A stretch of 64,000 bases of DNA, taken from the NCBI GenBank assembly GCA_951799445.1, contig OX637296.1, positions 6,138,001 through 6,202,000 on the forward strand, read 5' to 3'. Below, piece by piece: positions 5,710-62,163 of the stretch. Under the pieces are notes generated by a model that did not search any database, had not been told where the DNA came from, and saw only the letters and a program-made list of their open reading frames with translations. A program made the position numbers and the translations under genes. Source of the stretch: Pseudisothecium myosuroides. Taxonomy: Eukaryota; Streptophyta; Bryopsida; Hypnales; Lembophyllaceae. Every line of letters starts with the position of its first letter. The first letter of the stretch is position 1.

Positions 5710-5757
5710 GGTTTTGTTGAAACCAAAATGTCCCGCCGATGGAAAATCGTGTCGAGA

Positions 5758-6627
5758 CTAAAGCACTCGAAGTCGACATGGGCCTTCCGGGACATAAAGT
5801 AGTCCCTCATAGTACAAGAGCCCATCACAAAACTGGAATTTTGGATCGGTATCATCTCGGGGCATCTCACCTCCTTGTGATCTATGGATCCGTGGACTAG
5901 AAGTGATTTCATTCAGGGATTCCGAATCTATAACCACTGAATTAGGGATTTGAGAGTCCAAGGTTTGGATCTCTCCAGAATTTGAAGTATCAGAATGGCT
6001 CTTGAATTTCAAAGCCAAAGGATCAGATTGAAGACTTACTCGAATATCTTGAAGAAACGTTACATCCATTGAAGTTGTAATGTGTGTTGTTCTGAGTTGG
6101 AGTCGCTCGGGCTTGAGTAGAGTAAATCGTTGTTGGTCGTAAGCTGTGTCTCCCTCCTTTGGTGCAAAATATGCTCTTTTGGATAGAGCATCGGATCGAA
6201 CCTGTTGAGTCCCAGGACGATACATGATGACAAAGTTGAAACGCGATAGCGATATGCTCCACCGGGCTTGTCGTCGATTCAAAATCTTAGCAGACATGAA
6301 ATACTCGAGATTCTTATGGTCTGTATAGACTGTTACTGGATGTTGAGCTCCTTCAAGAAAATGTCGCCATTCTTGGAATGAGTCAACAATGGCAAGTAGC
6401 TTCTTGTCGTGGATTTCGTAGTTGATCTCCGCGGCTGTGAATTTTCGCGAATGGAACGCGACAGGATGGAGGCGTCCATCTTCGCTGGTTTGCGAGAGAA
6501 CTGCTCCCAAGGCAAAGTCAGAAGCATTGCTTTCAAGGAAGAAAGGCTTCTGATAATCAGGATGAGTTAAGATTGGCGCTGTAGTAAACGCCCTTTTCAG
6601 ATTCTCAAACGCTTGCTCCGCCTCCAT
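5758..6627 (-). pseudogene. Ty3 RNase H and linker
   Basis: RNase H motifs are visible: an SNASDFALGAVLSQ block, SRKFTAAEINYEIHDKKLLA, and TDHKNLEYF. The first block normally reads TDASD, so its first Asp is altered to Asn here. The frame is the same as RT upstream and integrase downstream. A TGA near 6655 separates it from RT, and a TAG near 5756 separates it from the HHCC/integrase region. Confidence 0.88.
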
Positions 6628-6657
6628 ACTCCACTCGAGTTTGTTTTTGCATGTGAG

Positions 6658-7722
6658 TCAGGTTAGCGGTGCAGTGATCTTGGAGTAGTTCTTGATGAAG
6701 ATCCGATAGAAATTGGTAAAGCCAAGAAAACATTGAACGTCGCGAATAGTTGATGGTCTCTTCCAGTCAATAGCTGCTTCGATCTTCTTAGGGTCCATCA
6801 ATAGACCTTCTCCCGAAATAATGTATCCAAGAAACTCAATCTGGGGTTGGTGAAATACGCATTTCTCTAGCTTGGCGTAAAGTCCAGCAGAGCGTAGTTT
6901 GTCTAGTACCATCCGAACATGGTTTTCATGGTCTTTCTCATTTTTTGAAAAGATCAAAATGTCGTCGAGATATATGACCACAAAATGATCAAGGAATTCA
7001 CGGAAAACATCGTTCATCAGATGTTGGAAAATAGCCGGTGCATTGGTAAGACCAAAAGGCATGACATTATACTCGAAGTGTCCATACCTTGTCCGGAACG
7101 CAGTCTTCCATTCGTCACCCGCCTTGATACGGATTAGATTGTAAGTTCCTCGAAGATCAATCTTGGTGTAGATCTTTGCTTGACTGAGTTGATCAAAAAG
7201 TCCAGAAATGAGAGGTAACGGATATCGATTCTTGATGGTGATTTTATTCAAACCACGATAATCCACGCACATCCTAAGTGATCCATCTTTTTTCTTCACG
7301 AATAGGATAGGAGCTCCTGCTGGGGACTTTGAGTGTTGAATGAAGTTCTTCGCAAGATTCTCGTCCAAATACTCCCGTAATGCAGCAAGCTCGTTTTGCG
7401 AAAGACTATAGATTGGTCCAAATGGAGGTTGAGTACCTTCTTGGAGATCAATCCCACAATCGTAAGGCCGGTGTTGAGGTAGTATGTCCGCATTCTTTTT
7501 TTCAAAGACGTCTCGATACTCCTTGTATTGCTCGGGTAATACACTTGATTTCTCGGTTGATTCAGCAATCGGGGTTGCAAAAATCATATAGGTAGTTCCT
7601 TTCTTGGCAGCTTTTACAAATGCTCTAGCTCCGATCATCAAGATAGATTTTGGCTGGGATGCTACAGATTGGTATATCTTTGGTTTCCGAGGATTAAGGG
7701 GTTCAGGCTCTTGACTATCCAA
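6658..7722 (-). pseudogene. Ty3 reverse transcriptase
   Basis: It carries the complete set of Ty3 RT motifs: [68 protein letters not shown], the catalytic [12 protein letters not shown] (YLDD), and [11 protein letters not shown]. The active-site aspartates are intact. Translation would need to bypass stops on both sides. Confidence 0.95.
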
Positions 7723-7872
7723 ATTTTCTATTTTTTGAATTTCATCTAACTGAAATTCTAATTTTCATTTTTTTCAGTCTATATTGGGATTATATCTATC
7801 TAGCCAAGAAAGTCCTAAGATAATGGGATTCGACGGAGATTTGATGACGTTGAAGATAACGATACTCTGAAA

Positions 7873-8163
7873 CTATTTTATACAAATAGTTAAAGGCTTG
7901 GTTTCTTGGATTACATCTCCAGATACTAGAGGTCTACCATCAATGACTTCTACAGATACTGGACATTTTTTTGTGACTAACGGAAGTTTATGACGCTCTG
8001 CAAAGTTTTTATCAATAAAACACGCTGATGCTCCGGAATCTAATAAAGCATTTGTTTCTATACTATGGTTGTCAAATTTAATCCTAAGCGGAATGATAAA
8101 GCAAGAAGAGGGTTCAGAGGATAGAATAGGACCTGTAGACTGTACACTATTGGCCAGCCGCAC
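7873..8163 (-). pseudogene. Ty3 aspartic protease
   Basis: It holds the active-site motif ALLDSGASACFID and a following flap-like region. It is in frame with RT, but several stops lie between 7873 and 7722. Confidence 0.85.
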
Positions 8164-8387
8164 GGTCCCTAATGTTGCTGGGCTTCCCCGTTTTCCGAGT
8201 TAGTAGACTCGTGACTAGTTTCCACGTTTGTCGAAGTATATCGGAATTTGTAAGGTTTTGTACTTACAACCTTTGCTGGACAGTTGTGAGCTCTATGTCC
8301 TTTTTCTCCACAATACATGCAGAGATCTTCTCTTCGACGACGATCTTTTTCTTCTGGAGTAAGTTTCTTGATTCTTGATGCGTCAAT

Positions 8388-9220
8388 CTACATTGGTTCA
8401 GGCATTGATGCGTTGGTTTGCCGGGTTGGTGTTACAACATCGGCTCGATATAGCCCTGACGAGGATCGGCGCTCTTGTCGTCGTTCAAAAAGTCGATTGT
8501 CGCAGCGTACCGCTTGTGTAATGGCTTCTGAAAGTGTAGTTGGATCTGGAAGATTTAACAACAAGTCCTTGACGTCGTCTCGTAATCTCCAACGGAAAGC
8601 GCTGATAAGAGCTTTGTCGTCCCAATCTACGTCGCAAGCAAGTTGTCGAAATTCTGCAACGTAAACAGCGGCTGCACGTGATCGTTGTTGTAGTGAACGA
8701 ATCTTTGTTGTTGCCGTCCTTTCTTTGTCCGTTTCACCAAAAGTATTAGCAAATTCTTCAATGAAGCCATCAAAATCTTGAAGTAGTGGTGAGTCTTTCT
8801 CCATAAGTGGTGAGTCTTTCTCCATAAGTGGTGAAAACCATGATGCCGCAGCTCCAGATAACAAAGTTTCAATCAATCCTACTTGAGTTTCTTCGGTAGG
8901 ATATTGCGATGGTTGCATGCGGATGATCATTCGGATGTGATTAACAAACGCCCGAAACTTTGAACGTGTTCCATCAAATTTGTCTGGAAGTCCAACTCTT
9001 GGTTCTTTTGCCGCCTGCGGTACTGGAGTTGCGACAGTAACTGTAGGTCTTGAAGGTCTTGAATTTGAGGCTTAGAGCTGTTCGAATGCGCTCCGCAGAT
9101 TAGCATTCTCCACCTGCAGTTCTTGAAGTACCCGAAGGACTTCTTCCATTGGAACAGAAGACATATCGCCCATTTTGAATAAGAAAACTTATAGATAGAT
9201 AAAGTAGCAAAGTTTTCCAC
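8388..9220 (-). pseudogene. Ty3 gag, frameshifted
   Basis: The 8930-8388 part shows the retrotransposon gag domain (AASWFSPLM, FANTFGETDKERTATTKIRSL, YVAEFRQLACDVDWDDKALI, FRWRLRDDVKDLLL). The N-terminal part lies in another frame up to 9220 (around 9130-8930). A 21-bp unit (TCTCCATAAGTGGTGAGTCT and one base more) is tandemly repeated at about 8786-8830, giving PLMEKDSPLMEKDSPL. A cysteine-rich nucleocapsid stretch lies near 8290-8340 on the minus strand. Frameshifts separate gag from protease. Confidence 0.85.
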
Positions 9221-26277: not shown

Positions 26278-29200
26278 TCAGACAAGTGTGATCTCAAGCA
26301 CTCCCTTGTTCGGAGTGATGCATCTGTTCTCCTCTCTTGTTGCTGATGCGGTGTAATACATGGAGCTGGGATTGGTACTAGTCCAAGAGAAGTTGTCATG
26401 AAGTGCGCTTCTCGGAATGTAGTCAAATTGGGGTTTAGAGGGAGGCACTTCAGGAAGGTGGACATCGCCATTGAGGATGAGGAGCACTTGGCGCATGGAG
26501 GGTCGCATGATAGGACTGGGGTGAGAGCACAAAAGTCCTAAACAAAGCACTTTGGTCATTTCATGGGCATTGTACACCCCAACAAGGCGCGCATCTGCCG
26601 CGTCGAGAATGCTTGAATTCCCCCACAATTGCCACACATGCTCCACCAATAGCTTCACCTCCTCATCTTCGTGGTAGATGGGTTTCTTCCCACACGCCAC
26701 TTCCAGCAAGAAAGCCCCAAAGCTGTACACATCTGTATGCTCCGTTTGTTTTCCTACCATCCCCAATTTGACCACCATCATGAGTCCAAGAAAGTCCTCA
26801 TACTTATCAAGATTCAAACTGCTTGCCAGTGAGGTACCTTTTGTCACATAGTATGATTGTCAGCATGCAAACAAAGGTTTTCCAAGGATCAAGAAATAAT
26901 GATTACATATTGAAACTACAAATCTAGCTTGACAACCATATAAATTCTTTGAAATCCCAACCAAGGTGATCGTACAAAAAAATGCAAAGGAGTCGGCAAC
27001 ACCAATAGGATCGATTTCCCAACCACAAGAGAGAAGGAAAGAAGCTAACACTGAATAAACATAATCAGATGCAGTAATCAACTCTGATTGTTGGTGTGCA
27101 TCTGGCTGCATGACGGTGTTTTATGCATGAGCAGGATAGTTTGTTTGTAACCTTACGATATTCATCCACGAAGGCAACAGTAACATGAGTTTTCTTCCAG
27201 GGACAAATATGGTTATGCCCAGTAAGGGCATTGCCAATGCATAATGGAATTTGGCACGCCAAATACATATCTAACTTTTCCCTATTTTGCACTTTGAAGT
27301 TGAAATTTCTATCATTGGAAGCGCATTCAAAAGTACTTTGGATAGGTACAAGAAAACTCAAATTTAGACATTGGACAAAGAAAATAAATCACTTCATAAA
27401 CTCGCTAAAAGATAGAAATTATAGTGGTATTGGCAAATCTTGGTTACCAATGCACTTTGCACTCCAAATTGGTGGGTTTTGGAGTGACGTGTGCATTGGT
27501 CACCGTGATTTTCCAACTCTTTTACAATTTTTGTGTATTTAGCTAACTTTGAAGTGGTTTATTTTCATTGTCCAATGTTTAAATTTGAAGGGTTTTTTGC
27601 ACCTATGTAAAGTACTTTTGAATGCGCTTTCATTGGAAAAAAATTCAAGTTTTAATTATAAACAAATCAAAAGTTAGTAAAGTTCATTTGGAGGGCCAAA
27701 TTCTAATATACATTGAAGAAGCTCTAACCCTCTCGCCACTCCCAGCAGCTCGAGGGTTACCTAGTCCATAATTGACAATTGTTAGTATTGCACAACCTTC
27801 CTAGGGAACCATTCTGGACATGCACATGCAAATGCAAGGCCTTGGAAAAAATGTCATACATCTGTAAAGGTGTGGTGCTCATAGTTTCCTTCATGTACTA
27901 GAAACAAGCATTAGCTTTAAGTGAAAGTACAAGAAGGGTCACCTGTGTGGAACAATTCTGGAGCAAAGTAACCAAAGGTGCCTGCCACATTGGTACTCTC
28001 CGGGGTCAATAAGCTGTGGTTGTAAGAGCGGGCTAGGCCAAAGTCACCCAATCGTGCATTAAACTTGGCGTCCAACATCACATTGGCTGCCTTCACATCA
28101 CGATGGATGATGCGCTCTTCACACTCCGTATGCAAATACACTAGTGCCGTGGCCACATCCACTACCACTTTGAACCTGTAAAAATGCAAACATTCTTTCA
28201 ATTGTCATTTGTACAAAACTTTAGAAGTTGTGCTAGAGCATTTAAGTACTTTTACGCAGTTGCTTGCATTTGTGAATCCACTTGATTAAAGCAATTTATC
28301 TTACACATTGTTTCAATGAGATCTTCTGGTCCATATAAGATGAAGATTCATTTCCATGTAATAAAAAGAAATTAAAATAAGCCATAACCATTGCCTTCCA
28401 TGCTCTAAAGAAATTGTCACTTTTTGTTAATCAAGTAGGAAGAGATTGTAGGGCAGAAGTGAGCTACATTAGGTGAACCCTCTTCTAAAAGACCGAAAAG
28501 TATTTTATCCACAATCCCATGCATGTCAACCATTCATCAAGTATTTTAGTCCATAACTACTCCATTTTTTCTAGACTCCACTTTGACACCTATTCTAAAA
28601 CACAATTTCTTAGCACCTTCTTTGCACACTCATTTGATCTCCCAAGCTCCTACTTTGTTATCCAACTCAAAAGTAAAGTGCGAGAGTGGCAAATGGACAT
28701 ATATCTAATGCCTCTTGTGTGGCTCAACATTTACACTACCTAGGCTTGAGAAATTCAAATCAATCTCTTCTTGAAACACATCCTTGATTAGGATTAGAAT
28801 GGACTAGGTAATGAAAAAGTAAAAAGCCTCATTATGAAAAATAACATGTCAAGCCTCAAGAGAGGCAAAGAATGTTATTTTTCATAATGAAACTTTGCTT
28901 TTGCATCACTTATAGACATAACCTCAATGTTGGATGGTTGAACCTTGATCAACATGTTCAACCAAGGGTCTACAAAGAAGGTCATCATGATGGCAAATCC
29001 AACCTACATTATAGAGAAGAATATGCCTCCCTTCAATGTCCTCATGCAAAGAGAGGCTCCCATCCATTAAAAAATAAGCTCTATTGAGGTTACGCTATCT
29101 TACCTCTTCTCCCAAGGGAAGCCAATGACCTCTTCCTCCTCAACAACATCCAATTTATCCACCCCATCTGCTTCTCCATGTGCACCGGGCAAAACCTCTT

Positions 29201-30611
29201 TTACTATGGCAGGGGACTTGAACAAATGCTTGTCAAGACTGCCTTGGGGCATGTAGTCATACACCAGAAGAAGCTCGCCTCGCTCATGGCACCAGCCTTG
29301 CAAACGCACCAAATTGCGGTGTTGAATTTTGCCAATGATCATCACCTCCGCCAAAAACTCACGCTCACCTTGATTGGACTCGGGCGCCACACGCTTGACA
29401 GCCACATACTGTTGGTTGCCAGACAAGAAACCTTTGTACACACTCCCAAAGCCTCCTCGCCCAAGCGTTTGCTTAGAGTCGAAGTTCTTCGTGGCCATGG
29501 CCAGTTCCTTGTACGTGAACTTGTGCGGATCCACCTCTCCTAGGTCGTTGGCGTCAATGTTGAACCTCCATCCACGCCTCTCCACACACAGACGGTAGTA
29601 CTTGTACAGGACGTAAATGGCAGATATAGCGGTGAGAGGCAGCAGAATCGACATCAGGATTACTTCATATGCGTGCGACTCGAAGAAAGTGAGTTTAAAT
29701 TTATCGCATGGGTACTCGAAACTGGGAGCAGCAGGCGAGGTGGAGTTCGACGTCCTCAGACTCCAATGATAAATATATACGAAGGGCCTTTCGAAACGCA
29801 ATTGACGAAGTGAAGCAATTGACAAAGTGAAGGCGACGTACATATGTTCATTGAGCACTTTGGAAAGATCGATCTGGTAACTCAAGGAATTATAAGGTAT
29901 CTCACTGGCCTCATTGGTGTCATTAGACAACATCATTAATGGTCCTGGACGCTGGTCCTGGCTCAGAGGACATTCGAGCCCACTAATGTCCGCCGTGCTA
30001 ACATTCAGAATCTGCAACGAAGCATCATAATCGATCCACACTTGCAGCAGCCAATATAGAAGGTCTTCTGGTCCCTGTAAGCGAACCCAACTGCTCGAAT
30101 TCATGCTGTTCACGTCGATGCCGATGTGAAACCCGTCCCCCGGGTCTGAAAACTGGGGGCTGTTTCGGAAGTCAAATTCGACTGCAAAAGTGTGCGATTG
30201 AGGGTCGCCATTGGACGTGGCGTTGAGCAGGCCCAGGTAGCCTCCAGCACTGCCAAGGGATGCGTTCGGGTCGGGAAGCATGGCAAAGGTGAACCCTTCC
30301 AGAAGGTTGAGCTCGGATCCTCCATAGCCAAACTGCCTCGAAGCTAGCGCGGCGCCAAGATCGATAAAGGCTACGAAGTTCGTGCTGAAGGAGAACACGG
30401 GGCCAGTGGGGTTCTCCTTAAGCCGGATCTTTTCTTCATAGAAACACCTGTGCGAAGGCTCTTGCCAATAACTCATGAAGCAATTTGGAATACTTGTCAA
30501 ATTGACGAAGGGTTCAGATGTCTGAGCAGAGTTGGCAACGTAGCTTTCTCGGAGCACCATTACAACACAAACCAGCAGCACACGACTCACGTGTTGGACG
30601 AGGAGCGCCAT
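26278..30611 (-). CDS. L-type lectin receptor kinase, intact (copy 1)
   Basis: Predicted exons are 30611-29104, 28175-27943 and 26753-26278. All introns are GT-AG, and the total of 2217 nt gives 738 residues and a TGA. The product is a plasma-membrane receptor: signal peptide (VLLVCVVMVL), legume-lectin ectodomain (GGYLGLLN, TFAVEFDF, HIGIDVNS metal-site region), one membrane span ([17 protein letters not shown]), then a Ser/Thr kinase. Kinase motifs are complete: [49 protein letters not shown] poorly conserved insert of about 40 residues precedes PWEKRFKVVVDVA. The segment before TFAM reads LLEGF where many family members have a DGLAF-like motif, so sugar binding may differ. The start is the first ATG before the signal peptide, identical in copy 2. 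The ligand is unknown. The family call is certain; splice sites are inferred from signals and frame. Confidence 0.93.
26754..27942 (-). other. Copy 1 lectin kinase intron 2
   Basis: A 1.19-kb intron with a GTGACC donor and GGTAG acceptor. It contains a diverged inverted repeat (about 27306-27634) whose copy 2 equivalent is nearly perfect. Confidence 0.75.
28176..29103 (-). other. Copy 1 lectin kinase intron 1
   Basis: A 0.93-kb intron with a GTAAGA donor and TTTTTACAG acceptor. It joins AAG AG to G TTC, giving KRFKVV across the junction. AT-rich, no further feature. Confidence 0.8.
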
Positions 30612-31104
30612 GAATCTGTCTTACACCTTGCTATATACTAGCGGCCTCATCGAGCATTCAACTCGCACCCGAATGAACTTGGGTAGGCGGCACAACTGGT
30701 TCAATTTCATTCGTCACTACCGACAAGGTGCTCTAACTACTGGAACACAGACCGGAATCCCCCTCACTATGATCCGAGTGCACGCTAGAACATGCACAGC
30801 AGCATCATGACTGGAAATATCACAGTTGCTCAATTAAACCATCTGCTCTCTGCTCTCGTAACGCTCTACAAGGACATGAATAATCGTCACAGTGAGAGCA
30901 GCAATCAACAGGCTAGCTAGCTAGGTCGTAGCTAGACGCACTAAGCTTGGTTCGTATTGCAACAGGAGCGTCAGTCTGATCCCATTCCTGATCAAGTGGG
31001 AATGCAAGGCTTGTGATCGAATTGCTGCATCCTCGTTCATATTCACGCTTAGAAATCACTCGCTCTTGAGGAGCTTCCATCTTTGGTCAGGGATGATGAG
31101 CAAG

Positions 31105-37679: not shown

Positions 37680-37982
37680 CATTAGAAGAGATTTGAGGGC
37701 TCTAAGAGCCCGCGAGTTATCAGGCAGTTCCCTGCCTGGGAACTCTGCCACACGCGCAGGCTGACGTGGTTGAGAGAGTGCCACGTCGGATTTTTTTTTT
37801 TTTTTTTTTTTTTTTTCTTCTTACTGTTTTTTTTAAATTTCAGAAGCAAAAATTTTATTTTATTTTATTTTATTTTGGGTAATTAGGATCTGACAGCAGC
37901 CCGATGCTCCCTTCCTGCATCGAGAACAGATCTGGGAACGGGCCTGAAACGGCCCTCCAATGCCCCCAAATCTCTTCTAATG
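37680..37982. mobile_element. CATTAG-family element, unoccupied relative of the retroelement host
   Basis: Starts CATTAGAAGAGATTTGAGGG and ends CCCCCAAATCTCTTCTAATG. It shares both halves with the element that hosts the 40296-47273 retroelement. Where that insertion sits, it has a long T-run (37788-37816) and AT-rich sequence before GGGTAATTAGGATCTGAC. About 80 extra bases beside it (37616-37679 and 37983-37992) are also absent from copy 1. Confidence 0.8.
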
Positions 37983-39482: not shown

Positions 39483-40295
39483 GGTTCTAATGTTTGACTG
39501 TACGTGGTCATAAACTTTGTCTTTGCATGGTAAATCCATTAGGAAGGACGAGCTCAAGTAGTTCATGCTCTAAGTGAGTAAATGTTTCCTCCAATACGTA
39601 GGCAATCAAGTACACAAATTACATGAACTCTTCAATGTATGGATAATGAACATTTTTGGAGTGGGGACTAATTACATTATAAGAAAAAACAATGTCCGAT
39701 CCAACATGGTAATCAACTTATATATATTGGTTAGGACAATTGATTAGGACATTTTGATTTGAACAAAAATCAGCACATATATGTTGATTTTATATCTTGA
39801 TTTTGTCAAATTTTAAATATATTCTTATTATTCAATAATTTGCCACATAAACTGCCACATCAGCAAATCTTGCCACATAGGCAGGACTACCACGTCAGTA
39901 ACCAACAAATTGGTGCTGAATAATGAATTAAAGTTTCCAAAATAAATTTTACACTTTAAAATTTAACTTTAAAAAACTGAACATTATATTTAAAGTAATT
40001 CAATATATATAGCAATTGAACTTTGAATGCCAAAATTCACCACTATATTCCAATAAGTTCAATGCATACTGCAATTAAACTTTGAAGGGTGCTTACCTTG
40101 GTGATAGAAGGGAAGAGAAGACAAGGTCTTTACACAAAAGGGGGGGGGTAGGAGGTAGGACAACCTACATGGCAGCATTAGAAGAGATTTGAGGGCTCTA
40201 AGAGCCCGCGAGTTATCAGGCAGTTCCCTGCCTGGAAACTCTGCCACATGCGTGCGCTGACGTGGTCGAGAGAGTGCCACGTCGGATTTTTTGTG

Positions 40296-41690
40296 TTTTT
40301 TCTTTTTTTTTCTTTTTTTCTTTTTTCTAGCTTTCATATTCTAGAGCTAGACACAAGAAATTCTAGACATTTGTGAATACGCTCACAATACTAGACACTT
40401 ATTATAGCTGGGATGATTTATTCAAAAAAATTCTATTCCTGGTTCTTCAAAATTGCAAAATTTCGTGATGTAATCACAAGTTCTCTAGACCATGATATGC
40501 TATATCACAATGATCTGGACCCTGATGTAAAGTACCATCTATGTTCAGAAAGAAACAACCAATCATACTGGTCAGCATGACACATTCGTCAGATATGATC
40601 AAAATTGATACAGTAACCAGCAGGATTCAGGTTAGTAACAAAAACTAACAGCTAGTATAACCCAATTATGGTGACTGAGTAACCAAGCCTGTAAGGAGAT
40701 TACGCAAATCCCAGCCTTTTACTGCCGATATTCAAGAGTAATAGACTGAAACGGAATGGTGGTGCACCTAACACGGTGACCAGTAACCATTTGGGGGCTA
40801 TTTTAAATACTCTAATACAACTGGCAACCTTCGTACAAACGGATGAAAAAGCTTATCATTCAACAAAAGAACGAAAGTACCAGGCCATCCTCCAACTTTT
40901 GCTTTACTCTTTAGCAAAGCAGTCACAGTTCTCGCACTCTCTGGAGCTTGCAGTAGCAGTTTGAGTCTGTTTTTTGTGCGGTGGTTAAGAACTGTAAGGA
41001 GACTTTGGAGACTTTTGTGAGTATTCTGGTTGGTTGAAGAGCGCTGAGGAACTTACACACGGAAAGATGTCTACATCACAACAATCTTGCAACACCCAGG
41101 TTGATTGACGAAACTTTGTGGAACTATTGTAGTATTGCCATGCATATTTGTCTGATTTTTTGTTATTTTCACTCTGAGTGAAGGCGATAACAAGCGTACT
41201 AGGGCTGCAGACACCTATTGCAACCTCTCTAACCTCACTATGTGTTATGTGTTATTGGGATGGGCACAGGTGAGGCCCTATACCTCTCGGAGTTTTTTGG
41301 CTGAAAATAAGACAAGTTGGCATATCTTTCTTCCCATGCAACTAGACTATGCTCTTAGAGTTTTTTATATACATAAATTGTCAAAATAATGGTCATATAG
41401 TTGTTTATGACTACACTACTGTTAAGTAGATACTTACGACTTCCAGAACTGCATTCCTGGTGCTTAGCAAAATTTGACAAAACTTAGCTAAGACTCCCCA
41501 GGAAAGAAAGTGAATGTATAAATAGATATATTTGACCAAATGTAGATACAATGCTCAACTTGTGCACACAAACACAAGTAGAAGAGACTTATGGACATGG
41601 TTTTGATATTTTGTATGTTTTTAGACATGAGAGTAAGTGCCTGGAAATTAGCAGAATGATGCCTCTGAAAAGAGGATGTTCCAGAAGCAG
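40296..41690 (+). repeat. 5' long direct repeat (LTR-like)
   Basis: Begins with a pyrimidine tract (TTTTTTCTTTTTTTTTC) and ends CCAGAAGCAG. It matches 45880-47273 base for base except about seven substitutions and one T in the leading run. It contains a TATAAATAG box at 41517 and three possible splice donors (41100, 41270, 41633). Confidence 0.92.
41517..41525 (+). promoter_or_regulatory. TATA box in the 5' repeat
   Basis: TATAAATAG lies about 170 bp before the end of the repeat. It would place transcription start near 41545-41555, giving U3 of about 1.25 kb and a short R-U5. The same box is in the 3' repeat at about 47100. Confidence 0.6.
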
Positions 41691-43449
41691 ATTTTTTTAC
41701 ACTAAATCCATGAGGCACTGGTGAAGTCCCTCCGTCAATCTGCCTATTTCCATGCAAATGCGCTTTTTCTAATTCAAGTGACAAGTTGCAATCTTGCAGG
41801 TCCCACGAAATGGACCAAATTGGCATCCTGATCTGCTGGCAATTGGATACAAGGAGCCCCTGCCGCCCCCCATTCCAGGAGTCCAAGCTACTCTGGCCGC
41901 AATCAACCCTGCCGAAGTGCACAAGTTCATCCAAGAGACCGATTTATCTTCAATCAACTCCGTAGGAGAAGACGGTGAGCCGGCCCTTCTTCTCACAGTA
42001 CTTGACCTTTCTCAATGGTCTCGCATCTTTGAGTGCGCGAACACTGACCTACAAGAAACTCTGAAACGATTACGGGAATTTCATGAAATGTTGCTCCAAA
42101 TTCTGACTGATGATGAGACTGAGCTAGCCAATGCCAAACGGGACACAACGATTGTAGAAGTTGCCATTAGGCATGCTAACAATCAGGTGGAGGAGTCAGT
42201 TTCTCTCTCACAATTGACGATACCAGAGGCTGGTACTTTCAACCACCCGTTTTTAGCAAACCTCAACATTGACGAGGCTCACAAAGCAGCCCTGGAGGAC
42301 TTGCAAGAATCAATTATGACGACACAATTCGAAAAGGAGCAGGACAACTTGGTCGCATCAGGACGGCACCTTTCGGTACCCTTTGTGCCGCAGAGGACGA
42401 TTGAGGATCAGATGGCCGCCAAAGACCACCGTGTCTGGGCAGCAGGCAACATGAACTCACTAGCACCGGTACGTATTTCGACCTGGCGCATCTGGGCTGG
42501 CTTGCAGAAGGGTGATATCGATGAGTGCAAAGATGCTGCTTTGCATGCTAAGAGACTCATCTCCAATGGACAAAACTTAACCAACGCGTTTGCCTTATAC
42601 GGATATGACCACAGCAAGTGCCCAGTAACTTCTGTGAAATTGCATATCAAGCTTGAGGTTCCAACGGCTAATGACCGACGTGACAAACACCCTCAAGAAA
42701 TGTGGAACGTCCACAGGCCTTATCTGCGTTGCGTTTGCCACCCAAAGTCTAGTAACGGCTGCAATGGATCATTCATATGGTGGGATCATGCATGCTATTA
42801 CATGATCAATCATCTGGAGAAATTTTTCCCAGATGACAATTTTCCCACCTTGAAAGCAAAATTCATCGCCTTCCTGATCTGGATGCAAGGTGCAGGCAGA
42901 ACCGCTGTTAGATGCCAGATCGCTTTTGCACAATCACGTTCCTGGATGTGCAAAGGCGCGATACAGTTTGCAAAGAATCCGACTGGGAAGGTACTGGCGG
43001 AGGTGCATGATCTGCCCGGTCCACGTCAAATTGAGCGCATGCTTAAACCTGCATCGTTCTCAATTGCGAATCCAGGTACTCCTAGCAACGCACCTCCTTC
43101 TAAAAGACAAAAAATCAATTTAAACACCCCCCCGAGTGGTAATCGACAGCCTGTTAACGGCGGTTACGGACGAGGCAGGGGTGTAGCGACGATGAGAGGC
43201 CGCGATAACGGCAGAGGGCGTGGGAACGAGAATCAGCATCGCAGATACAACACACCAGCCCAGAGTTCGGCATTTCAATATTTTCCAGCTACACCGTGGA
43301 CTAATAGACTGCAGGTGTTCCAGAGCCCAAGTACTGAACTTGGGGTTACCACAGTAGCTCGCTCGGAATACGCAAACAATGGACCGCGTATTCAAGAAAT
43401 TGATCAGTCTCCCGTTAGAGGAAAGGTTTTAAGTTTTGATGAGGATTAG
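41591..43449 (+). CDS. ORF1, gag-like RG-rich protein (spliced start)
   Basis: The open frame runs from a stop at 41779 to TAG at 43449, but has no ATG for its first 90 or so codons. It begins just after an acceptor (CAATCTTGCAG ending 41799). The best model joins exon 41591-41632 (MDMVLIFCMFLDMR, donor GTAAGTG) to 41800-43449, giving 563 residues. The product has a coiled-coil-like helix (LQETLKRLREFHEMLLQILT), a Cys/Trp/His-rich segment (CVCHPKSSNGCNGSFIWWD), a basic PPSKRQKINL nuclear-type signal, and an RG-rich tail (GGYGRGRG, MRGRDNGRGRG) suited to RNA binding. No CCHC knuckle or protease DSG is seen. A role as nucleocapsid-like partner of the RT is inference. It could also be the N-terminal half of a longer spliced protein with ORF2. 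Confidence 0.75.
41633..41799 (+). other. Predicted intron spanning the repeat/internal border
   Basis: The donor AGA/GTAAGTG at 41633 and the acceptor CTTGCAG ending at 41799 define a 167-nt intron in phase 0. Two other donors in the repeat, CAG/GTTGAT at 41100 (after ATG 41067) and CAG/GTGAGG at 41270 (after ATG 41240), would also join in phase 0. The TATA box favours the 41633 donor. Confidence 0.55.
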
Positions 43450-43510
43450 CAGTTAATCTCAAAGTTACAAGTTCTGTTTTTCTTACGTGAACTTGGTGGG
43501 TTTAGCAGAG

Positions 43511-45658
43511 ATGCAACGGTACCTGTGCAAGGACCAACTTGGCAGACTTGTCATACGAAAGTCTAATGAAAGGCCTACAAAAGGCTACATTATCATTACC
43601 TATCCATGTCGGGCTTTGGAGTGGATAAATTTGCGTCAAATCTTTTCTAACTGTCTGAGTAATTTCGGTTTGGAACACTTAGTTCCTGAGATTGCAAACG
43701 TCATGTTTGCATGGCGTTATCATGAAAATATGGCAGCGTCAATGTATCGACCATCTGAGATTTTTAAAAAAATTTCGTTCTCACAGTTACTTGATCCACA
43801 ATTTGGCTGTGTATGCTTGAAGGTGAAGAGATTCTCGAGATTTCTGGACAGCAGAACTCTGCAGGAGACCTCGAGCTTTGTAAAACCGCAGATCCATGTA
43901 CGTACAACGGACGTCAATATCATTCAGCACCAGGACCTGCGACAAGCAGTTGGAATGGGACTTAACCACATTCCGTTAAAACCGACAAATATCTCAGTGA
44001 GTATCGCTACCGCACTCGATGCATTCTATCAGCTGGTTAGCATTCTTGATCTTGAAAATGCCGGACTTCCCTTAGCTCAGGCTACTGAATGGGTCCGTTT
44101 GCATTGTTTGGACTTGCTTAAAATAGCCTCACAAACCAACAAGGCGGGACTTAGATTCTCGGGTACAGATCTCCTAATGCAGCGTAACGTAAAGAACGAG
44201 ATCAACTGGCTTACAAACCATCTTTTCTGCGCTGGCTTGGACAAAGCCTCCAACAACGCGTGTTTTATCTGCGTTAGACACATTCGGTTGCTTGCTCTCG
44301 AGAGACTCTCAGGTCCCAAGTTCATACCGTGCAGAATTGACTCAAACTGGACTCTTACGTCTAGTATTATAGAACAAATGTCTAGTGAGATTACCAAGCT
44401 TGTACCGGGACTAAGTATCCCGTTTTCAAATTTGCCATACCTAATGGCTACATACAAGCTACACAAAGACAAATATAGATGGTTAACAAATGCTTTCCAA
44501 ACAATTTATTCAAACGTAGCCCAGCTTCTCACGCTTGCTACCATGCAAATACTTGAACAAGTGAAACAGTGGGCTGCCGATACAGTGAAAGGATACACTC
44601 GCTTCCTTCGATGTCACACTTCGATGTTCTGGATGGTCAACTCTTCAGTTGAAGCCGCACTAAATTTTCCTGACAAGATGCATGACATATTTGTTGCTGA
44701 TATTACACGGTGTTACGAGTCGATCCCCCTGGAGGGATCAGACAACCTTCCTGACGCAGTTGCTCATATCATCAAGCTGGGATTTACCCAAGCTAAGATA
44801 GCACATCCCAGAGCTCAACCGTTAATCTGGATCAGGACTCGGAACAACGGACAAGTCGCCCGAGCAACGTGGAATACCAACTGTCCTTCTTACGGGACAT
44901 GGTTCTCCTTAAACGAAATACAACTTGTGGAGATCCATACGTGGCTGATGAAAAATTGTCATGTAGCCCTTGGTGACCGAGTATGGATTCAACAGCTGGG
45001 TATTCCTATGGGTTTCTCCTGCTCACCTTTATGGTGTAACGTATACCTTCTCCACTACGAGATCACCTTCATTCAGCGGTTAGCACGCCTTGGCAGAACA
45101 GATCTCCTGAGCCGCTTTCGATACGCGTATTGCTATATCGATGATTTGTGCTGGGTTAACGCAATCAACCCAATGCAATTCTTATCACCTCAACAAGACA
45201 GATCCAAGGATAATCCATTTTGGATCTATCCGTTAGATGTCTTAGAAATCAAAAGTGAAGTTAGTCGATACTCTGCAACTGATCCTCTGCGAGGTATGCA
45301 GGCGAACTTCATGAATATCGAAATTTCCATCTCTGATGAGGATTCTCAGACATACAAAACGCAAAAGTACGATAAGAGGAGGACTCTTCCCTTTGAGTAC
45401 ACACAATATATCAAGTTCAAGTCCAACCGCCCCATTAAGCAATCGTACAACATCGCAATTTCACAGACAGTTCCCATTCTCTATATCTCGAGCTCTTGGG
45501 AAGCTGCTGCAGCAGAAATTAGAGTGCTGATCAACACCTTGGTCGGCAATGGATTTCGTGAAGATCGGCTCAAACGGATCATAGGACAATTTCTTGAGTC
45601 AGATTCCTTTCCAGGGATCAAATTTGACATTCAAGCACTATGTAATACTCTCAAGTAG
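43511..45658 (+). CDS. ORF2, Penelope/rvt-type reverse transcriptase
   Basis: A 715-residue intact ORF from the first ATG, 61 bases after ORF1 and in another frame. The motifs are those of the Penelope/rvt/telomerase side of RT diversity: GLNHIPLKP (150), DKASNNACFICVRH (244), LMATYKLHKDKYRWL (311), FVADITRCYESIPLEG with catalytic Asp397, GIPMGFSCSPLWCNVY (497), and YIDD (542-545). A thumb-like C-terminus follows (YIKFKSNRPIKQSYNIAISQ, LVGNGFREDRLKRII). All three catalytic Asp are present. The C-terminus ends without a GIY-YIG nuclease, RNase H or integrase. Translation may use a spliced RNA, since TTTTTCTT...TTTAGCAG immediately precedes the ATG. The RT call is near certain. Choosing between the rvt gene family and endonuclease-lacking Penelope elements needs a tree. 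Confidence 0.9.
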   Translation: MQRYLCKDQLGRLVIRKSNERPTKGYIIITYPCRALEWINLRQIFSNCLSNFGLEHLVPEIANVMFAWRYHENMAASMYRPSEIFKKISFSQLLDPQFGCVCLKVKRFSRFLDSRTLQETSSFVKPQIHVRTTDVNIIQHQDLRQAVGMGLNHIPLKPTNISVSIATALDAFYQLVSILDLENAGLPLAQATEWVRLHCLDLLKIASQTNKAGLRFSGTDLLMQRNVKNEINWLTNHLFCAGLDKASNNACFICVRHIRLLALERLSGPKFIPCRIDSNWTLTSSIIEQMSSEITKLVPGLSIPFSNLPYLMATYKLHKDKYRWLTNAFQTIYSNVAQLLTLATMQILEQVKQWAADTVKGYTRFLRCHTSMFWMVNSSVEAALNFPDKMHDIFVADITRCYESIPLEGSDNLPDAVAHIIKLGFTQAKIAHPRAQPLIWIRTRNNGQVARATWNTNCPSYGTWFSLNEIQLVEIHTWLMKNCHVALGDRVWIQQLGIPMGFSCSPLWCNVYLLHYEITFIQRLARLGRTDLLSRFRYAYCYIDDLCWVNAINPMQFLSPQQDRSKDNPFWIYPLDVLEIKSEVSRYSATDPLRGMQANFMNIEISISDEDSQTYKTQKYDKRRTLPFEYTQYIKFKSNRPIKQSYNIAISQTVPILYISSSWEAAAAEIRVLINTLVGNGFREDRLKRIIGQFLESDSFPGIKFDIQALCNTLK

Positions 45659-45814
45659 CATTTGTTGCAGCTATTTCATATGTATACATATATGTACTGA
45701 ATAGAGGTCATATGATATGACAAAGAAACAAAAAGAAAAAAAGTTATTTCCTATTAGTTCTGAGCAAAAACAAGGTTTTACCAGACTTTCAGAACAGCAG
45801 GGGCCTGGTGTGCA

Positions 45815-45851
45815 CCTCAATATGAGGGTACACCAGGTACCCTCATTGAGG
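45815..45851 (+). other. Stem-loop upstream of the 3' repeat
   Basis: CCTCAATATGAGGGTAC pairs with GTACCCTCATTGAGG across a five-base loop (ACCAG). It sits between ORF2 and the purine tract and might be an RNA structure for the RT. It is unique to the internal region. Confidence 0.6.
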
Positions 45852-45863
45852 CTTAGCACTTCC

Positions 45864-45878
45864 AGGGGAGGAGGCGGG
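45864..45878 (+). promoter_or_regulatory. Polypurine tract of the retroelement
   Basis: AGGGGAGGAGGCGGG ends one base before the 3' repeat at 45880, exactly where LTR retroelements prime plus-strand synthesis. No such tract is expected for a target-primed Penelope element. Confidence 0.7.
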
Positions 45879-45879
45879 C

Positions 45880-47273
45880 TTTTTCTTTTTTTTTCTTTTT
45901 TTCTTTTTTCTAGCTTTCATATTCTAGAGCTAGACACAAGAAATTCTAGACATTTGTGAATACGCTCACAATACTAGACACTTATTATAGCTGGGATGAT
46001 TTATTCAAAAAAATTCTATTCTTGGTTCTTCAAAATTGCAAAATTTCGTGATGTAATCACAAGTTCTCTAGACCATGATATGCTATATCACAATGATCTG
46101 GACCCTGATGTAAAGTACCATCTATGTTCAGAAAGAAACAACCAATCATACTGGTCAGCATGACACATTCGTCAGATATGATCAAAATTGATACAGTAAC
46201 CAGCAGGATTCAGGTTAGTAACAAAAACTAACAGCTAGTATAACCCAATTATGGTGACTGAGTAACCAAGCCTGTAAGGAGATTACGCAAATCCCAGCCT
46301 TTTACTGCCGATATTCAAGAGTAATAGACTGAAACGGAATGGTGGTGCACCTAACACGGTGACCAGTAACCATTTGGGGGCTATTTTAAATACTCTAATA
46401 CAACTGGCAACCTTCGTACAAACGGATGAAAAAGCTTATCATTCAACAAAAGAACGAAAGTACCAGGCCATCCTCCAACTTTTGCTTTACTCTTTAGCAA
46501 AGCAGTCATAGTTCTCGCACTCTCTGGAGCTTGCAGTAGCAGTTTGAGTCTGTTTTTTGTGCGGTGGTTAAGAACTGTAAGGAGACTTTGGAGACTTTTG
46601 TGAGTATTCTGGTTGGTTGAAGAGCGCTGAGGAACTTACACACGGAAAGATGTCTACATCACAACAATCTTGCAACACCCAGGTTGATTGACGAAACTTT
46701 GTGGAACTATTGTAGTATTGCCATGCATATTTGTCTGATTTTTTGTTATTTTCACTCTGAGTGAAGGCGATAACAAGCGTACTAGGGCTGCAGACACCTG
46801 TTGCAACCTCTCTAACCTCACTATGTGTTATGTGTTATTGGGATGGGCACAGGTGAGGCCCTGTACCTCTCGGAGTTTTTTGGCTGAAAATAAGACAAGT
46901 TGGCATATCTTTCTTCCCATGCAACTAGACTATGCTCTTAGAGTTTTTTATATACATAAATTGTCAAAATAATGGTCATATAGTTGTTTATGACTACACT
47001 ACTGTTAACTAGATACTTACGACTTCCAGAACTGCATTCCTGGTGCTTAGCAAAATTTGACAAAACTTAGCTAAGACTCCCCAGGAAAGAAAGTGGATGT
47101 ATAAATAGATATATTTGACCAAATGTAGATACAATGCTCAACTTGTGCACACAAACACAAGTAGAAGAGACTTATGGACATGGTTTTGATATTTTGTATG
47201 TTTTTAGACATGAGAGTAAGTGCCTGGAAATTAGCAGAATGATGCCTCTGAAAAGAGGATGTTCCAGAAGTAG
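45880..47273 (+). repeat. 3' long direct repeat (LTR-like)
   Basis: 1394 bp, partner of 40296-41690. Differences seen are C/T, C/T, A/G, A/G, G/C, A/G and C/T, mostly transitions. Confidence 0.92.
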
Positions 47274-48186
47274 ATTTTTTGTGGTAATTAGGGTCTGACA
47301 ACAGCCCGACGCTCCCTTCCTGCATCGAGAACAGATCTGGGAACGGGCCTGAAACGGCCCTCCAATGCCCCCAAATCTCTTCTAATGGATATGTGAAGTG
47401 AGGATTAGTAGTTATGGTCAAGTCAAAAGTTGGAATCGTGGTTAAAAAGTAGAATTTTAGACCTCATTTAGACAGCGTTGAATAACTTTATTCAAAAACA
47501 TTTGAACTAAGAAAAGTTGTAAAATAAATCCAATATTCATTTTCAAAAATCCGTTTGAGATTTTGAGTCTCCAATAAAAAGTTATGCACAAATTGCAAAG
47601 AGGGGTTGGAAGGGACATTTCTTTTAACAATTTCAAACATGCTCGTTGCAATTTGTGCATAAATTTTTATTAAAGATTTGAAATCTCAAATGGATTTTTG
47701 GAGGTGAATACTGGATTTATTTTACAACTTTTCTTAGTTCAAATGTTTTTGAAAAAAGTTATTCTACACTACCTAAGTGAGGTTTGAAATTCTACTTTTT
47801 AACCACAATTTCAACTTTTGACTTAACTATGAGTCCCTTCCAACCCCCTCTCTAAAATTTGACCATAACTTTTGATTGGAAACTCAAAATCTCAAACGGA
47901 TTTTTGGAGATAAACATTGGCTTTATTTTACAACTTTTTTTAGTTCAGATTTTTCTGAAAAAAGTTATTCAACGTTGCCTAAATGAGGTCTGAAATTCTA
48001 TTTTTTAACCACAATTCCAACTTTTGACTTGATTATAATTACTAATTCTCACTTCACATATCCCATATGGGTTGTTCTACCTCCTACCATCCCACTTATA
48101 TAAAGACCTTGTCTTCTCTTCTCTTATACACTATAGTAAGCACCATTCAAAGTTTAATCACCACATGCATTGAACTAATTGGATTA

Positions 48187-57773: not shown

Positions 57774-60700
57774 TCAGACAAGTGTGATCTCAAGCACTCC
57801 CTTGTCCGAAGTGATGCATCTGCTCTCCTCTCTTGTTGCTGACGCGGTGGAATACATGGAGTTGGGATTGGTACTAGTCCAAGAGAAGTCATCGTGAAGT
57901 GCGCTTCTCGGAATGTAGTCAAATTGGGGTTTAGAGAGAGGCACTTCAGGAAGGTGGACATTGCCATTGAGGATGAGGAGCACTTGGCGCATCGAGGGTC
58001 GCATGGTAGGACTGGGGTGAGAGCACAGAAGCCCTAAGCAAAGCACTTTGGTCATTTCATGGGCATTGTACACCCCAGCAAGGCACGCATCTGCCGCTTC
58101 AAGAATGCTTGAGTTGCCCCACAGTTGCCACACCTGCTCCACCAATAGCTTCCCCTCCTCGTGTTCATGGTAGATGGGTTTCTTTCCACACGCCACTTCC
58201 AGCAAGAAAGCCCCAAAGCTATACACGTCTGTCTGCTCTGTTTGTTTTCCTGTCATCCCCAATTTGACTACCATCATGAGTCCAAGAAAGTCTACAAATC
58301 AGATTGAATCTGTCTCCAAGTTTCATTCAGTTTCCAAGTAGTACACCGTCCATTTGTAAGTCGGAACTCACTGACACTTATCAAGGTTCAAAATGCTTGC
58401 CAGTGAGGCACCTTTTGTCACATAGTACAATTGTCAGCATGCAGACAAAGGTTTTCCAGGGACCAAGAAATAGTGATTACATATAGAAACTAGAAATCTA
58501 GCTTGACAGCCAAATGAAATCCCAACCAGGTGATTGTATAACAAAATGCAAAGGGGTTGCAACGCCGATAGGATCAACTTCCCAACCACAAGAAGCTAAC
58601 ACTGAATAACCCTAATCAGATGCAGTAATCAACACTGATTGTCGGTGTGCATCTGGCTGCTTGACGGTGTTTCATGCATGAGCAGGATAGTTTGTTTGTA
58701 ACTTCACGATATTCATCCACAAAGGCAACAGTTGTATGAGTTTTCTGCCAGGGACAAATTTGGTTACGTCTTGTAAGGGCATCGTCAATGCAAAACTGAA
58801 TTTGGCACACCAAATACATATTTAACTTTTCACTATTTTGCACTTAGAAGTTGAAATTTCAATCATTGGAAGTGCATTTAAAAGTACTTTGGATAGTTCC
58901 GAGAAAAACTCAAATGTAGACATTAGACAAAGAAATTAAACCACTTCATAAACTAGCTTAAAGACAAAAATTATAGTGGTATTGGCAAATTACGGATACC
59001 TATGCACTTTGCACTCCAAATTGGTGCAAATTGGTGCAATTTGGAGTGAAATGTGCATAGGTATCCGGAATTTGCCAATACCACTATAATTTTTGTCTTT
59101 AAGCTAGCTTATGAAGTGGTTTAATTTCTTTGTCTAATGTCTACATTTGAGTTTTTCTTGGAACTATCCAAAGTACTTTTAAATGCACTTCCAATGAATA
59201 AAGATTCAAGTTTTAATTATAAACCAATCAAAAGTTAGAAAAGTTCATTTGGAGGGCCACATTCTAATCTGCATTGGAGAAGCTCTAACCCTCTTGCCAC
59301 CTCCTTGCAGTTCAAGCGTTACCTAGTTTATAATTGATAGTTGTTAGTATAGGACGACCTTCATGGAGAACCATTCCAGACATACACATGCAAAGCCTTG
59401 GAAAAATGTTACACATCTAGTACCCATGGTGCTCATGGTTTCCTTCCTATACCAAAAACAAACATTACCTTTAATTGAAAGCAAAAGAAGGGTTACCTGT
59501 GTGGAACAATTCTGGGGCAAAGTAACCAAAGGTGCCTGCTACATTGGTACTCTCTGGGATCAACAAGCTATGGTTGTAAGAGCGGGCTAGGCCAAAGTCC
59601 CCCAATCGTGCATTAAATTTGGCATCCAACATCACATTGGCTGCCTTTACATCACGGTGGATGATGCGCTCTTCACACTCCGTGTGTAGATACACTAGAG
59701 CCGTGGCTACATCCACTACGACTTTGAACCTACAAAAATGCAAACATTCTTTTAGTTTTCATCCTTATAGAACTTCATAAATTGTGTTGGGGCATTCAAG
59801 AACTTCTACACCACAATCCCATGTACGTCAACCATTCATCTAGTCTATAACTAATCCACTCTTTCCAAACTACATTCTTTATACCTATTCCAATGCATGA
59901 TTTCTCAACACCTTCTTTGCACACTCATTCAATCTCCCAAGATCCTAAACATCTTCAAAAATATTCCATTATCCAACTCAAAGGGCAAAGGGTGTGGGAG
60001 TGGCAAACATACATATAGCCAATGCCTCTCGTGTGACTCAACATGTATACTACCTAGGCTTGAAAAATTCAAATCAATCTCTTTTTGAAACACATCCTTG
60101 ATTAGAATGGACTAGGTAATGAAGAAGTAAAGCTTCCTTGAGAGAAATAACATGATGAGCCTCAAGAGAGGCAAGGGATGTTATTTATCATAGTGAGACT
60201 TTTCTTTTGCAATACTAAATATAACCTCAATGTTGGATGGTTGAATCTTGATCAACCATGCTCAATCAAGGGTCTACAAAGAAGGTCATCATAATGGTAA
60301 AGCAACCCCACGTTATGGAAAAGAACATGCCTCCCATCATGCAAAGAGACGCTCCCATCTGTTTAGAAATTAGTTGTATTGAGGTTATGGTATCCTACCT
60401 CTTCTCCCAAGGGAACCCAGTGACCTCATCCTCTACAATGTCCAATTTGTCTAGCCCTTGTGCTTCTCCACATGCATTAGGCAAAATCTCGGTTGCTATA
60501 GCAGTGGACTTGAACAAATGCTTGTCGAGACTGCCTTGAGGCATGTAGTCATACACCAGAAGAAGCTCACCTCGCTTATGGCACCAACCTTGCAAACGCA
60601 CCAAATTGCGGTGACGAATTTTGCCAATGATCATCACCTCCGCCAAAAACTCACGCTCACCTTGATTGGACTCAGGTGCCACACGCTTGACAGCCACGTA

Positions 60701-61883
60701 CTGTTGGTTGCCAGGCAAGAAGCCTTTGTACACACTTCCGAAGCCTCCTCGCCCGAGTGCTTGCTTGGGGTCGAAGTTCTTCGTGGCCATGGCCAGTTCC
60801 GGTGTGCGGATCCACCTCTCCCAGGTCATTGGCGTCAATGTTGAACCTCCATCCACGCCTCTCCACCCACTGACGGTAGTACTTGTACAGGCCGTAAATG
60901 GCAGCCATAGCGGTGAGAGGCAGCAGAATCGACATCAGCTTTACTTCAAATGGGTGCGACTCGATGAAAGTGAGTTTAAATTTATTGCATGGGTACTCGA
61001 AACTGGGAGCAGCAGGCGAGGTGGAATTCGACGTCCTCAGACTCCAAAGATAAATATACAAGTAAGGCATTTCGAATTGCGAAGAAGTGATTGACGAAGT
61101 GAAGCCGACGTACATATGTTCATTGAGCACTTTGGAAAGATCGACCTGGTAACTCAAGGAATTATAAGGTATCTCAATGGTGTCATTGGTGTCATCAGAC
61201 CTCACCATTGATGGTCCTGGACGCTGGTCATGGCTCAGAGGACATTCAAGCCGACTAATGTCCGCCGTGCTAACATTCAGAATCTGCAACGAAGCATCAT
61301 AATCGATCCATACTTGCAGCAGCAAAAATCCAAGGTCTTCTGGTCCCTGTAAACGAACCCAACTGCTCGAATTCATGCTGTTCACGTCGATGCCGATGTG
61401 AAACCCGTCCCCCGGGTCTGAAAACTGGGGGCTGTTTCGGAAGTCAAATTCGACTGCAAAAGTGTGCGATTGAGGGTCGCCATTGGACGTGGCGTTGAGC
61501 AGGCCCAGGTAGCCTCCGGCGCTCCCAAGGGATGCGTTCAGGTCGGGAAGCATGGCAAAGGTGAACCCTTCCAGAAGGTTGAGCTCGGATCCTCCATAGC
61601 CAATCTGCCTCGAAGCTAGCGCGGCGCCAAGCTCGATAAAGGCTACGAAGTTCGTGCTGAAGGAGAACACGGAGCCAGTGGGGTTCTCCTTAAGCCGGAT
61701 CTTTTCTTCATAGAAACACCTGTGCGAAGGCTCTTGCCAATAACTCATGAAGCAATTTGGAATACTTGTCAAATTGACGAAGGGTTCAGATGTCTGAGCA
61801 GAGTTGGCAACGTAGCTTTCTCGGAGCACCATTACAACACAAACCAGCAGCACACGACTCACGTGTTGGACGAGGAGCGCCAT
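57774..61883 (-). pseudogene. L-type lectin receptor kinase, frameshifted (copy 2)
   Basis: Exons equivalent to copy 1 are 61883-60399, 59729-59497 (233 nt) and 58249-57774 (476 nt), with intact GT-AG signals. Exon 1 is 23 nt shorter than in copy 1. Part of the loss is in frame in the ectodomain. The other part is a net 11-nt deletion at about 60800-60801, just after GEVDPH, where copy 1 has KFTYKEL. It shifts the frame between the membrane span and the kinase. The lectin domain and membrane span remain open (403-residue frame ending in junk), and the kinase half stays intact in its own frame ([41 protein letters not shown]). It could still make a secreted or membrane-anchored lectin lacking the kinase. 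Otherwise a young pseudogene. Confidence 0.88.
58868..59192. repeat. Near-perfect 140-bp hairpin in intron 2, copy 2
   Basis: Arms 58868-59007 and 59053-59192 are reverse complements with about three mismatches, around a 45-base loop that itself pairs (ACTCCAAATTG/CAATTTGGAGT). It lies in the intron between the DFG exon and the last exon. The copy 1 equivalent (27306-27634) is much more diverged. The transcript could fold into long double-stranded RNA. Confidence 0.9.
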
Positions 61884-62163
61884 GAATCTGTCTTACACCT
61901 TGCTATATACTAGCGGCCTCATCGAGCATTCAACTCGCACCCGAATGAACTTGGGTAGGCGGCACAACTGGTTCAATTTCATTCGTCACTACCGACAAGG
62001 TGCTCTAACTACTGGAACACAGACCGGAACCCCCCTCACTATGATCGGAGTGCACGCTAGAACATGCACAGCAGCATCATGAACGGAAATATCACAGTTG
62101 CTCAATTAAACCATCTGCTCTCTGCTCTCGTGACGCTCTACACGGACATGAATATGATGAGCA

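Follow-up and report, generated by a model that had tools for sequence, protein, structure and literature searches.

The window analysed here is a 64-kb stretch of the genome of the moss Pseudisothecium myosuroides (contig OX637296.1, positions 6,138,001 to 6,202,000). The element at 40297-47280 of this window is a retroelement that has two genes, is present in many copies, and carries complete ends resembling long terminal repeats (LTRs). Its reverse transcriptase (RT), encoded by open reading frame 2 (ORF2), is predicted to fold most like telomerase, and a predicted RNA three-way junction at the repeat boundary is conserved and supported by covariation. It is probable, in our assessment, that this telomerase-like RT starts on a template-like simple repeat within the junction, primed by matching simple-repeat chromosomal DNA. 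The nearest known kind of element, compared by published descriptions and predicted fold, is the endonuclease-deficient Penelope-like element (PLE).

A multi-copy element with LTR-like ends

The two direct repeats of the element are each 1401 bp long and align to each other without gaps and with 7 mismatches. The initial annotation of this DNA had described repeats of about 1.39 kb, a purine tract at the 3' repeat, a TATA box in the repeat, an RG-rich ORF1, and an intact RT in ORF2 with the motif YIDD. All of these were confirmed (Table 1): the purine tract is AGGGGAGGAGGCGGGC and is conserved across families, the box reads TATAAATA, and both frames are open. The proposed 10-bp target duplication, ATTTTTTGTG, fared less well. 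Its letters are present, but the first seven (ATTTTTT) also end the element's own repeat, and the duplication is therefore insecure, with only GTG unambiguous. Junctions of the other copies were inspected by eye, and no consistent target-site duplication (TSD) was found among them.

A search of the host genome (388 Mb, 222 contigs; 119 first-look candidates, 62 of them scored) returned 68 match rows for ORF2, some of which are pieces of one copy. Counted from the match table, 19 of these rows span nearly the whole of ORF2 without a stop, and several sets of copies are 99.3-99.8% identical across ~5 kb at different places, on different contigs. The initial annotation had called for a search for further full copies and had allowed for there being only one, a case that the 68 rows exclude. 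A single-copy cellular gene was rejected on the same count. Local duplication was likewise rejected as the origin of the repeats, because complete elements were found at unrelated places.

Complete repeats were present in all 16 elements read at both ends (that of the window, five others, and ten more). These repeats are about 1.24-1.68 kb long and 98.8-100% identical, aligning in two pieces in E12 and E14. Among eight further elements read in part, six have a second repeat. Long ORF2 frames were the criterion by which elements were selected for reading; partial ORF2 matches also exist in the genome. In 29 of the 30 loci, ORF2 is preceded by sequence homologous to ORF1. One locus, L028, sits in a tandem: the ORF2 end and purine-tract region of another copy lie upstream of its 5' repeat, and another repeat begins downstream of its 3' repeat. 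Matches to ORF2 cluster at G000:C3:33.53-33.57 Mb, which includes L028.

Predicted proteins

Relatives of ORF2 in public sequence number 119 by sequence search and 139 by profile (120 listed). Most are on metagenome contigs, and the only organism names are Ceratodon and Selaginella, the latter with two distant relatives. With more than 100 related public proteins, moss and lycophyte records among them, the ORF2 family extends beyond a one-locus oddity. Pfam gives a weak RVT_1 match in 31 of 34 family members, plus scattered sub-cutoff matches and nothing else. The usual integration enzymes, already reported missing in the initial annotation, were also undetected on a wider basis: Pfam scans of ORF1, ORF2, and 33 ORF2 relatives revealed no endonuclease (GIY-YIG), integrase, protease, or RNase H. 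PF26215 is annotated on the public proteins P0050 and P0104. PADLOC returned weak RT matches (the best being CRISPR-associated RT in 32 of 34 members, and Drt2 in 12 of 34), and NCBIfam returned weak group II RT matches in two of the four ORF2 proteins scanned; these matches indicate an RT and nothing beyond. No viral relatives of ORF2 were found in viral contigs by a profile search or by two RT-motif patterns, and sequence searches yielded no credible relative among solved structures.

The predicted structure of ORF2 is a single continuous chain of high confidence (predicted local distance difference test score, pLDDT, 94.3). With this model as query, Foldseek ranks 1-10 are all TERT, and the Z scores are 14.1 and 13.5 for TERT, compared to 11.4 for a group II intron, 9.5 for LINE-1, and 9.1 for HIV. 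The match on human TERT covers residues 325-1075, which we take to run from the RNA-binding domain to the thumb. The predicted model has the TRBD-RT-thumb fold, and no TEN-like region aligned. This ranking agrees with the earlier description of an RT unlike those of LTR elements. By hhalign, ORF2 gave E 0.1 and probability 0.6 against the RT of the Ty3/gypsy element in the same window. Hidden nuclease or integrase folds had been suggested as something to look for at the ORF2 termini and in ORF1. The ORF2 model is telomerase-like from its N-terminal part to the RT thumb, leaving no evident spare domain.

ORF1 is predicted to consist of a helical core and a disordered, RG-rich tail. Searches found 27 relatives, and the family is conserved together with ORF2; in at least six cases an ORF1 match and an ORF2 match come from contigs of equal length, which suggests that each such pair lies on a single contig. 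Residues C276, C313, C315, and C323 are invariant in the family alignment. No known fold was matched in the PDB or in viral models, which does not show that one is absent. A sub-cutoff Pfam match to CNTF (E 2e-4, 21.3 of 22.7 bits) was taken as a chance match of helices and set aside. In one public protein, P0002, the ORF1 N-terminus is fused straight to ORF2, perhaps as a spliced or mispredicted product.

RNA structures and simple repeats at the boundary

The boundary between repeat and internal sequence falls inside the predicted junction. Its parts (P1, P2, a single strand, and P3 with the loop GGTGA) were identified in 24 of 29 stretches in an initial scan, which did not reveal it in L057, L063, L064, L065, or L067. 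Six near-identical copies (L032, L033, L035, L038, L042, and L052) were dropped from the 24, leaving an alignment of 18 rows. In these rows 78.8% of the positions pair, compared to 60.2% in shuffles and 41-50% when slid, and cells changed on both sides number 129, compared to 57 in shuffles (0 of 500 shuffles reach the observed value). When arms were exchanged between families, the observed pairing was never reached for P1 or P3 (0/2000 each). RNAalifold alone recovered P2 and P3 but not P1, which was set by hand and tested afterwards. A covariance model recovered the fold in three of six unused stretches (L016, L064, and L065). Over the 64-kb window, the same model matched the junction site with E 2e-19 and half of the structure where the 3' repeat ends (E 0.04), with a third match at chance level (E 0.11).

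Just 5' of the purine tract, an H-type pseudoknot is predicted. Its alignment has 17 rows, from which L016 and L029 were omitted because the purine tract was not recognised. Pairing is 89.1% in the 17 families and 36-43% when slid; double-change cells number 31, compared to 11.6 in shuffles (0/500). The outer half of stem S2 is weaker, with 79.8% paired.

Each LTR opens, right after the purine tract, with a simple repeat: a T-run with or without C or A, GTTT, TTC, or TC. The single strand of the junction holds the same type of motif as the simple repeat that opens that family's LTR, and in all 22 elements the P3 loop follows the end of the repeat at a distance of 20-25 letters. Across 16 families, LTR starts fit their own template better than those of other families (7.25 vs 5.17; 0/5000 permutations). 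Under a strict rule, in which the genome must continue the template's repeat by at least 4 letters, the 3' flank does so in 10 of 22 elements and the internal sequence in none of 22. E05, E08, and E11, which this rule scores as zero, lie in interrupted arrays. For two TC families, the template and LTR start were known before the 3' flanks were fetched, and all three elements (3/3) run into CT arrays. The 5' flank of L026 is not a repeat beyond the array. L020 and L028 are located in the simple repeat that opens another such element. With regard to a tRNA primer site after the 5' LTR, none of the 16 internal starts read opens with TGG. Tandem TTTAGGG telomere repeats are absent from the 64-kb window.

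The element of the window was inserted within a short inverted-repeat element. A paralogue of this host repeat has an empty site with a T-rich tract at the element's position. Such a tract was thus the probable target, although that of this copy itself may have been short. The empty site also contains TTTCAGAAGCAAAAATTTT(ATTTT)n, reminiscent of the element's repeat end CCAGAAGCAGATTTTTT; this could be the footprint of an abortive insertion or chance.

The TATA box and the splice sites of a possible intron were kept out of the argument because they are present in the window element and absent from most families. A strict pattern for the box gave no match at the same distance in 17 other families, one of which has TATATAT further upstream, and a comparable intron model was found in 4 of 17 other families. 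Splicing of the possible intron would excise the whole three-way junction, which unspliced RNA alone would then keep.

Large inverted and direct repeats lie beside the element's 3' end (47387-48063). Elsewhere in the window lies a Ty3/gypsy element (4975-9071, minus strand) whose pieces of gag, RT, RNase H, and integrase are spread over different frames. A gene for an L-type lectin receptor kinase is present in two copies with the same N-terminal sequence (29103-30620 and 60675-61892, minus strand); the second open frame has no kinase match.

Table 1. Features of the element and of the related empty site (window coordinates)
Feature	Position	Strand	Remarks
5' terminal direct repeat (LTR-like)	40297..41697	+	1401 bp; opens with T(5-9)C simple repeat
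TATA-like box	41517-41524	+	in 5' repeat; counterpart at 47100-47107 in 3' repeat
Possible intron (GTAAGT...CTTGCAG)	41633..41799 (region 41627-41799)	+	inferred; ATGAGA would join the ORF1 frame
RNA three-way junction	41644..41750	+	predicted RNA fold, covariation support
P1 stem of junction	41644-41661/41733-41750	+	
P2 hairpin of junction	41662-41675	+	
Template-like single strand	41676-41711	+	contains repeat end (T-tract)
P3 hairpin of junction	41712-41732	+	loop GGTGA
ORF1	41794..43449	+	551 amino acids, RG-rich, open
ORF2	43487..45658	+	723 amino acids (715 from first ATG, 43511); open; YIDD
H-type pseudoknot	45804..45851	+	predicted RNA fold, covariation support
Pseudoknot S1	45804-45813/45828-45837	+	
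Pseudoknot S2	45815-45821/45845-45851	+	
Purine tract	45864..45879	+	adjoins 3' repeat; conserved across families
3' terminal direct repeat	45880..47280	+	1401 bp
Empty-site paralogue of host repeat, without element	37680..37982	+	T-rich tract of ~80 bp at the element's position

Proposed mechanism, alternatives, and known systems

In retroviruses and LTR elements, the LTR end marks the start of the minus strand and the LTR beginning marks the start of the plus strand. By analogy, the 3' end of simple-repeat DNA would pair with the template segment of the junction, in the manner of a chromosome end on telomerase RNA, and at the position that the tRNA primer site occupies in an LTR element. The RT would copy to the 5' end of the RNA, transfer to the 3' repeat, and continue, rebuilding a full LTR. 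For the second strand, the starting point would be either the purine tract or the opposite strand of the target, paired with the simple repeat that opens the LTR. ORF1 would coat the RNA. An integrase would be unnecessary, with pre-existing nicks or breaks sufficing. Internal initiation is also described for the Penelope RT, within a stem-loop near the boundary between pseudo-LTR (pLTR) and ORF (PMC11167929), so this mechanism may elaborate the Penelope mode in a telomerase-like way.

Several observations weigh against this proposal. Because the element encodes no RNase H, the purine tract could be used only with the help of an enzyme from the host. The hhalign match between ORF2 and the host TERT is marginal (E 9e-4, probability 23; other exon E 0.025), and the TRBD model PF12009 has no match in ORF2, its sole match in the genome being the host TERT (L069, G000:C6:24472203). 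Both RNA structures were drawn from the same sequences used to test them; L057, L063, and L067 have no junction even by the covariance model, and further pair types in the pseudoknot are within the shuffle range (126/500). The permutation of LTR starts and templates counts related families as independent. The strict rule fails at 12 of 22 3' junctions, that of the window's own element included. A looser score matches 7 of 18 3' flanks, compared to 91 of 946 control windows, and 7 of 16 5' flanks. For the latter, 155 of 3464 controls match, and the T-rich E08 locus accounts for 150 of these. Because slippage also lengthens simple repeats, some of the 5' array sequence may derive from the element. 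Truncated copies are under-counted because the elements read were picked for long ORF2, and neither L018 nor the decayed L029 has a second repeat in the stretch fetched.

There is close to an even chance that the element is instead an endonuclease-deficient PLE of the Athena/Coprina grade, with pseudo-LTRs from partial tandems and priming on exposed simple-repeat or telomere-like ends. This alternative overlaps telomerase-style priming at the junction and differs from it in mechanism, not necessarily in descent. PLE RTs are described as the closest relatives of telomerase (PMC12632851), they initiate internally near a stem-loop, and Athena 3' ends bear telomere repeats (PMC5537684). Endonuclease-deficient PLEs are listed for conifers and for Selaginella (PMC9033089), where the two distant ORF2 relatives occur, and the tandem at L028 would fit as well. 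The initial annotation held that direct repeats and a short TSD contradict Penelope anatomy; this does not stand, since PLEs carry pLTRs, some with 8-10 bp TSDs (PMC3846280). Direct repeats in 16 of 16 elements thus agree with PLEs, without distinguishing a true LTR from a pLTR. Frequent 5' truncation and variable ends are also typical of PLEs; partial ORF2 matches exist here, and the copies read had been picked for long ORF2. GIY-YIG, found in canonical PLEs, was not detected here, and endonuclease-deficient members lack it by definition. In contrast, neither the ORF1 homology upstream of ORF2 nor the precise ends, with their purine tract and the fit between template and LTR start, is among the PLE features described in the literature excerpts examined, and a hammerhead was not found (no Rfam match in 40000-47500 up to E 10).

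It is unlikely that LTR-ended linear or circular DNA enters simple repeats by homology- or microhomology-mediated recombination of the host, with the template-like segment providing homology only. In its favour, the LTR ends of some copies look like the target repeats, no integrase was found, and L020 and L028 lie in the opening repeat of another element. However, recombination leaves unexplained why the repeat ends within a covarying junction at a near-constant distance from an invariant loop. A mobile rvt gene is quite improbable. RVT genes occur as host genes on a long branch of their own (PMC5718144), and mobile relatives are conceivable, but the predicted fold ranks telomerase first. Loop 2a is among the RVT hallmarks. 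The many match rows and near-identical copies do not agree with the definition of rvt genes as domesticated, non-mobile host genes. Least probable, and by a clear measure remote, is a conventional, tRNA-primed LTR retrotransposon whose RNase H and integrase went unrecognised. The LTRs, the purine tract, and the gag-like position of ORF1 would suit it. Against it stand the telomerase-like ORF2 model with no further domain evident, the weak RVT_1 and sub-cutoff matches in Pfam, the lack of similarity to the window's Ty3/gypsy RT, and the absence of TGG at the 16 internal starts read.

Somewhat below an even chance, we place the broader proposal that these elements are a separate kind of retroelement. 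This would combine a telomerase-like system in cis (template, junction, and pseudoknot, with an RT of telomerase architecture) with priming at microsatellite ends and LTR-style transfer, would be retargeted in its lineages by template swaps (T-run, GTTT, TTC, or TC), and would represent a living intermediate between telomerase and LTR/Penelope elements. If telomerase-style priming at internal simple repeats is correct, a mobile element makes LTRs with neither integrase nor tRNA. Its target would be set by a short RNA template, such that the target rule of an RT amounts to a few RNA letters. This would provide a concrete model linking telomerase and Penelope-type elements, and would bias insertion at microsatellites in a new way.

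Endonuclease-deficient PLEs (Athena, Coprina) share with the present element a telomerase-related RT (here by predicted fold), direct repeats, the lack of an endonuclease (none was found here), and simple-repeat DNA at the junctions, which is telomeric in Athena. Unlike them, the present element keeps its two ORFs in a fixed order, and its LTR-like ends are precise and follow a conserved purine tract. It also has a pseudoknot and a junction that bears a template, and its repeats are those of microsatellites rather than telomeres. The template-bearing junction, pseudoknot, and microsatellite-matched LTR starts are unmentioned for such elements in the excerpts of open-licence literature searched.

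Telomerase RNA is laid out as template, junction, and pseudoknot. The present element resembles telomerase in having an RNA with a template-like segment, junction, and pseudoknot, and in a predicted fold from the RNA-binding domain to the thumb; a DNA 3' end would likewise pair with the template. Unlike in telomerase, the element itself constitutes the RNA, which would be copied in its entirety, and the Pfam TRBD model has no match. The LTR retrotransposons Ty1, Ty3, and BEL are alike in their LTRs, the purine tract at the 3' LTR, and a gag-like position of ORF1. They differ in that integrase, protease, and RNase H are undetected here, the RT fold ranks nearer telomerase, and a simple repeat stands at the presumed primer site. 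Kuafuorterviruses, a new LTR-like lineage of animals, are also LTR-flanked and outside the classic LTR clades. Microsatellite-targeting long interspersed nuclear elements insert in simple repeats as well (PMC4640811), but carry endonucleases and have no LTRs. Finally, Penelope/Poseidon elements, such as PAc of Anolis, are alike in their direct repeats, in AT-rich targets for part of the families, and in an internal start at an RNA stem-loop near the repeat/ORF boundary, which in the present element would be the junction. PAc differs in its GIY-YIG endonuclease and hammerhead and in an RT start without homology to the cut DNA (PMC11167929), whereas in some copies of the present element the start segment corresponds to the target repeat.

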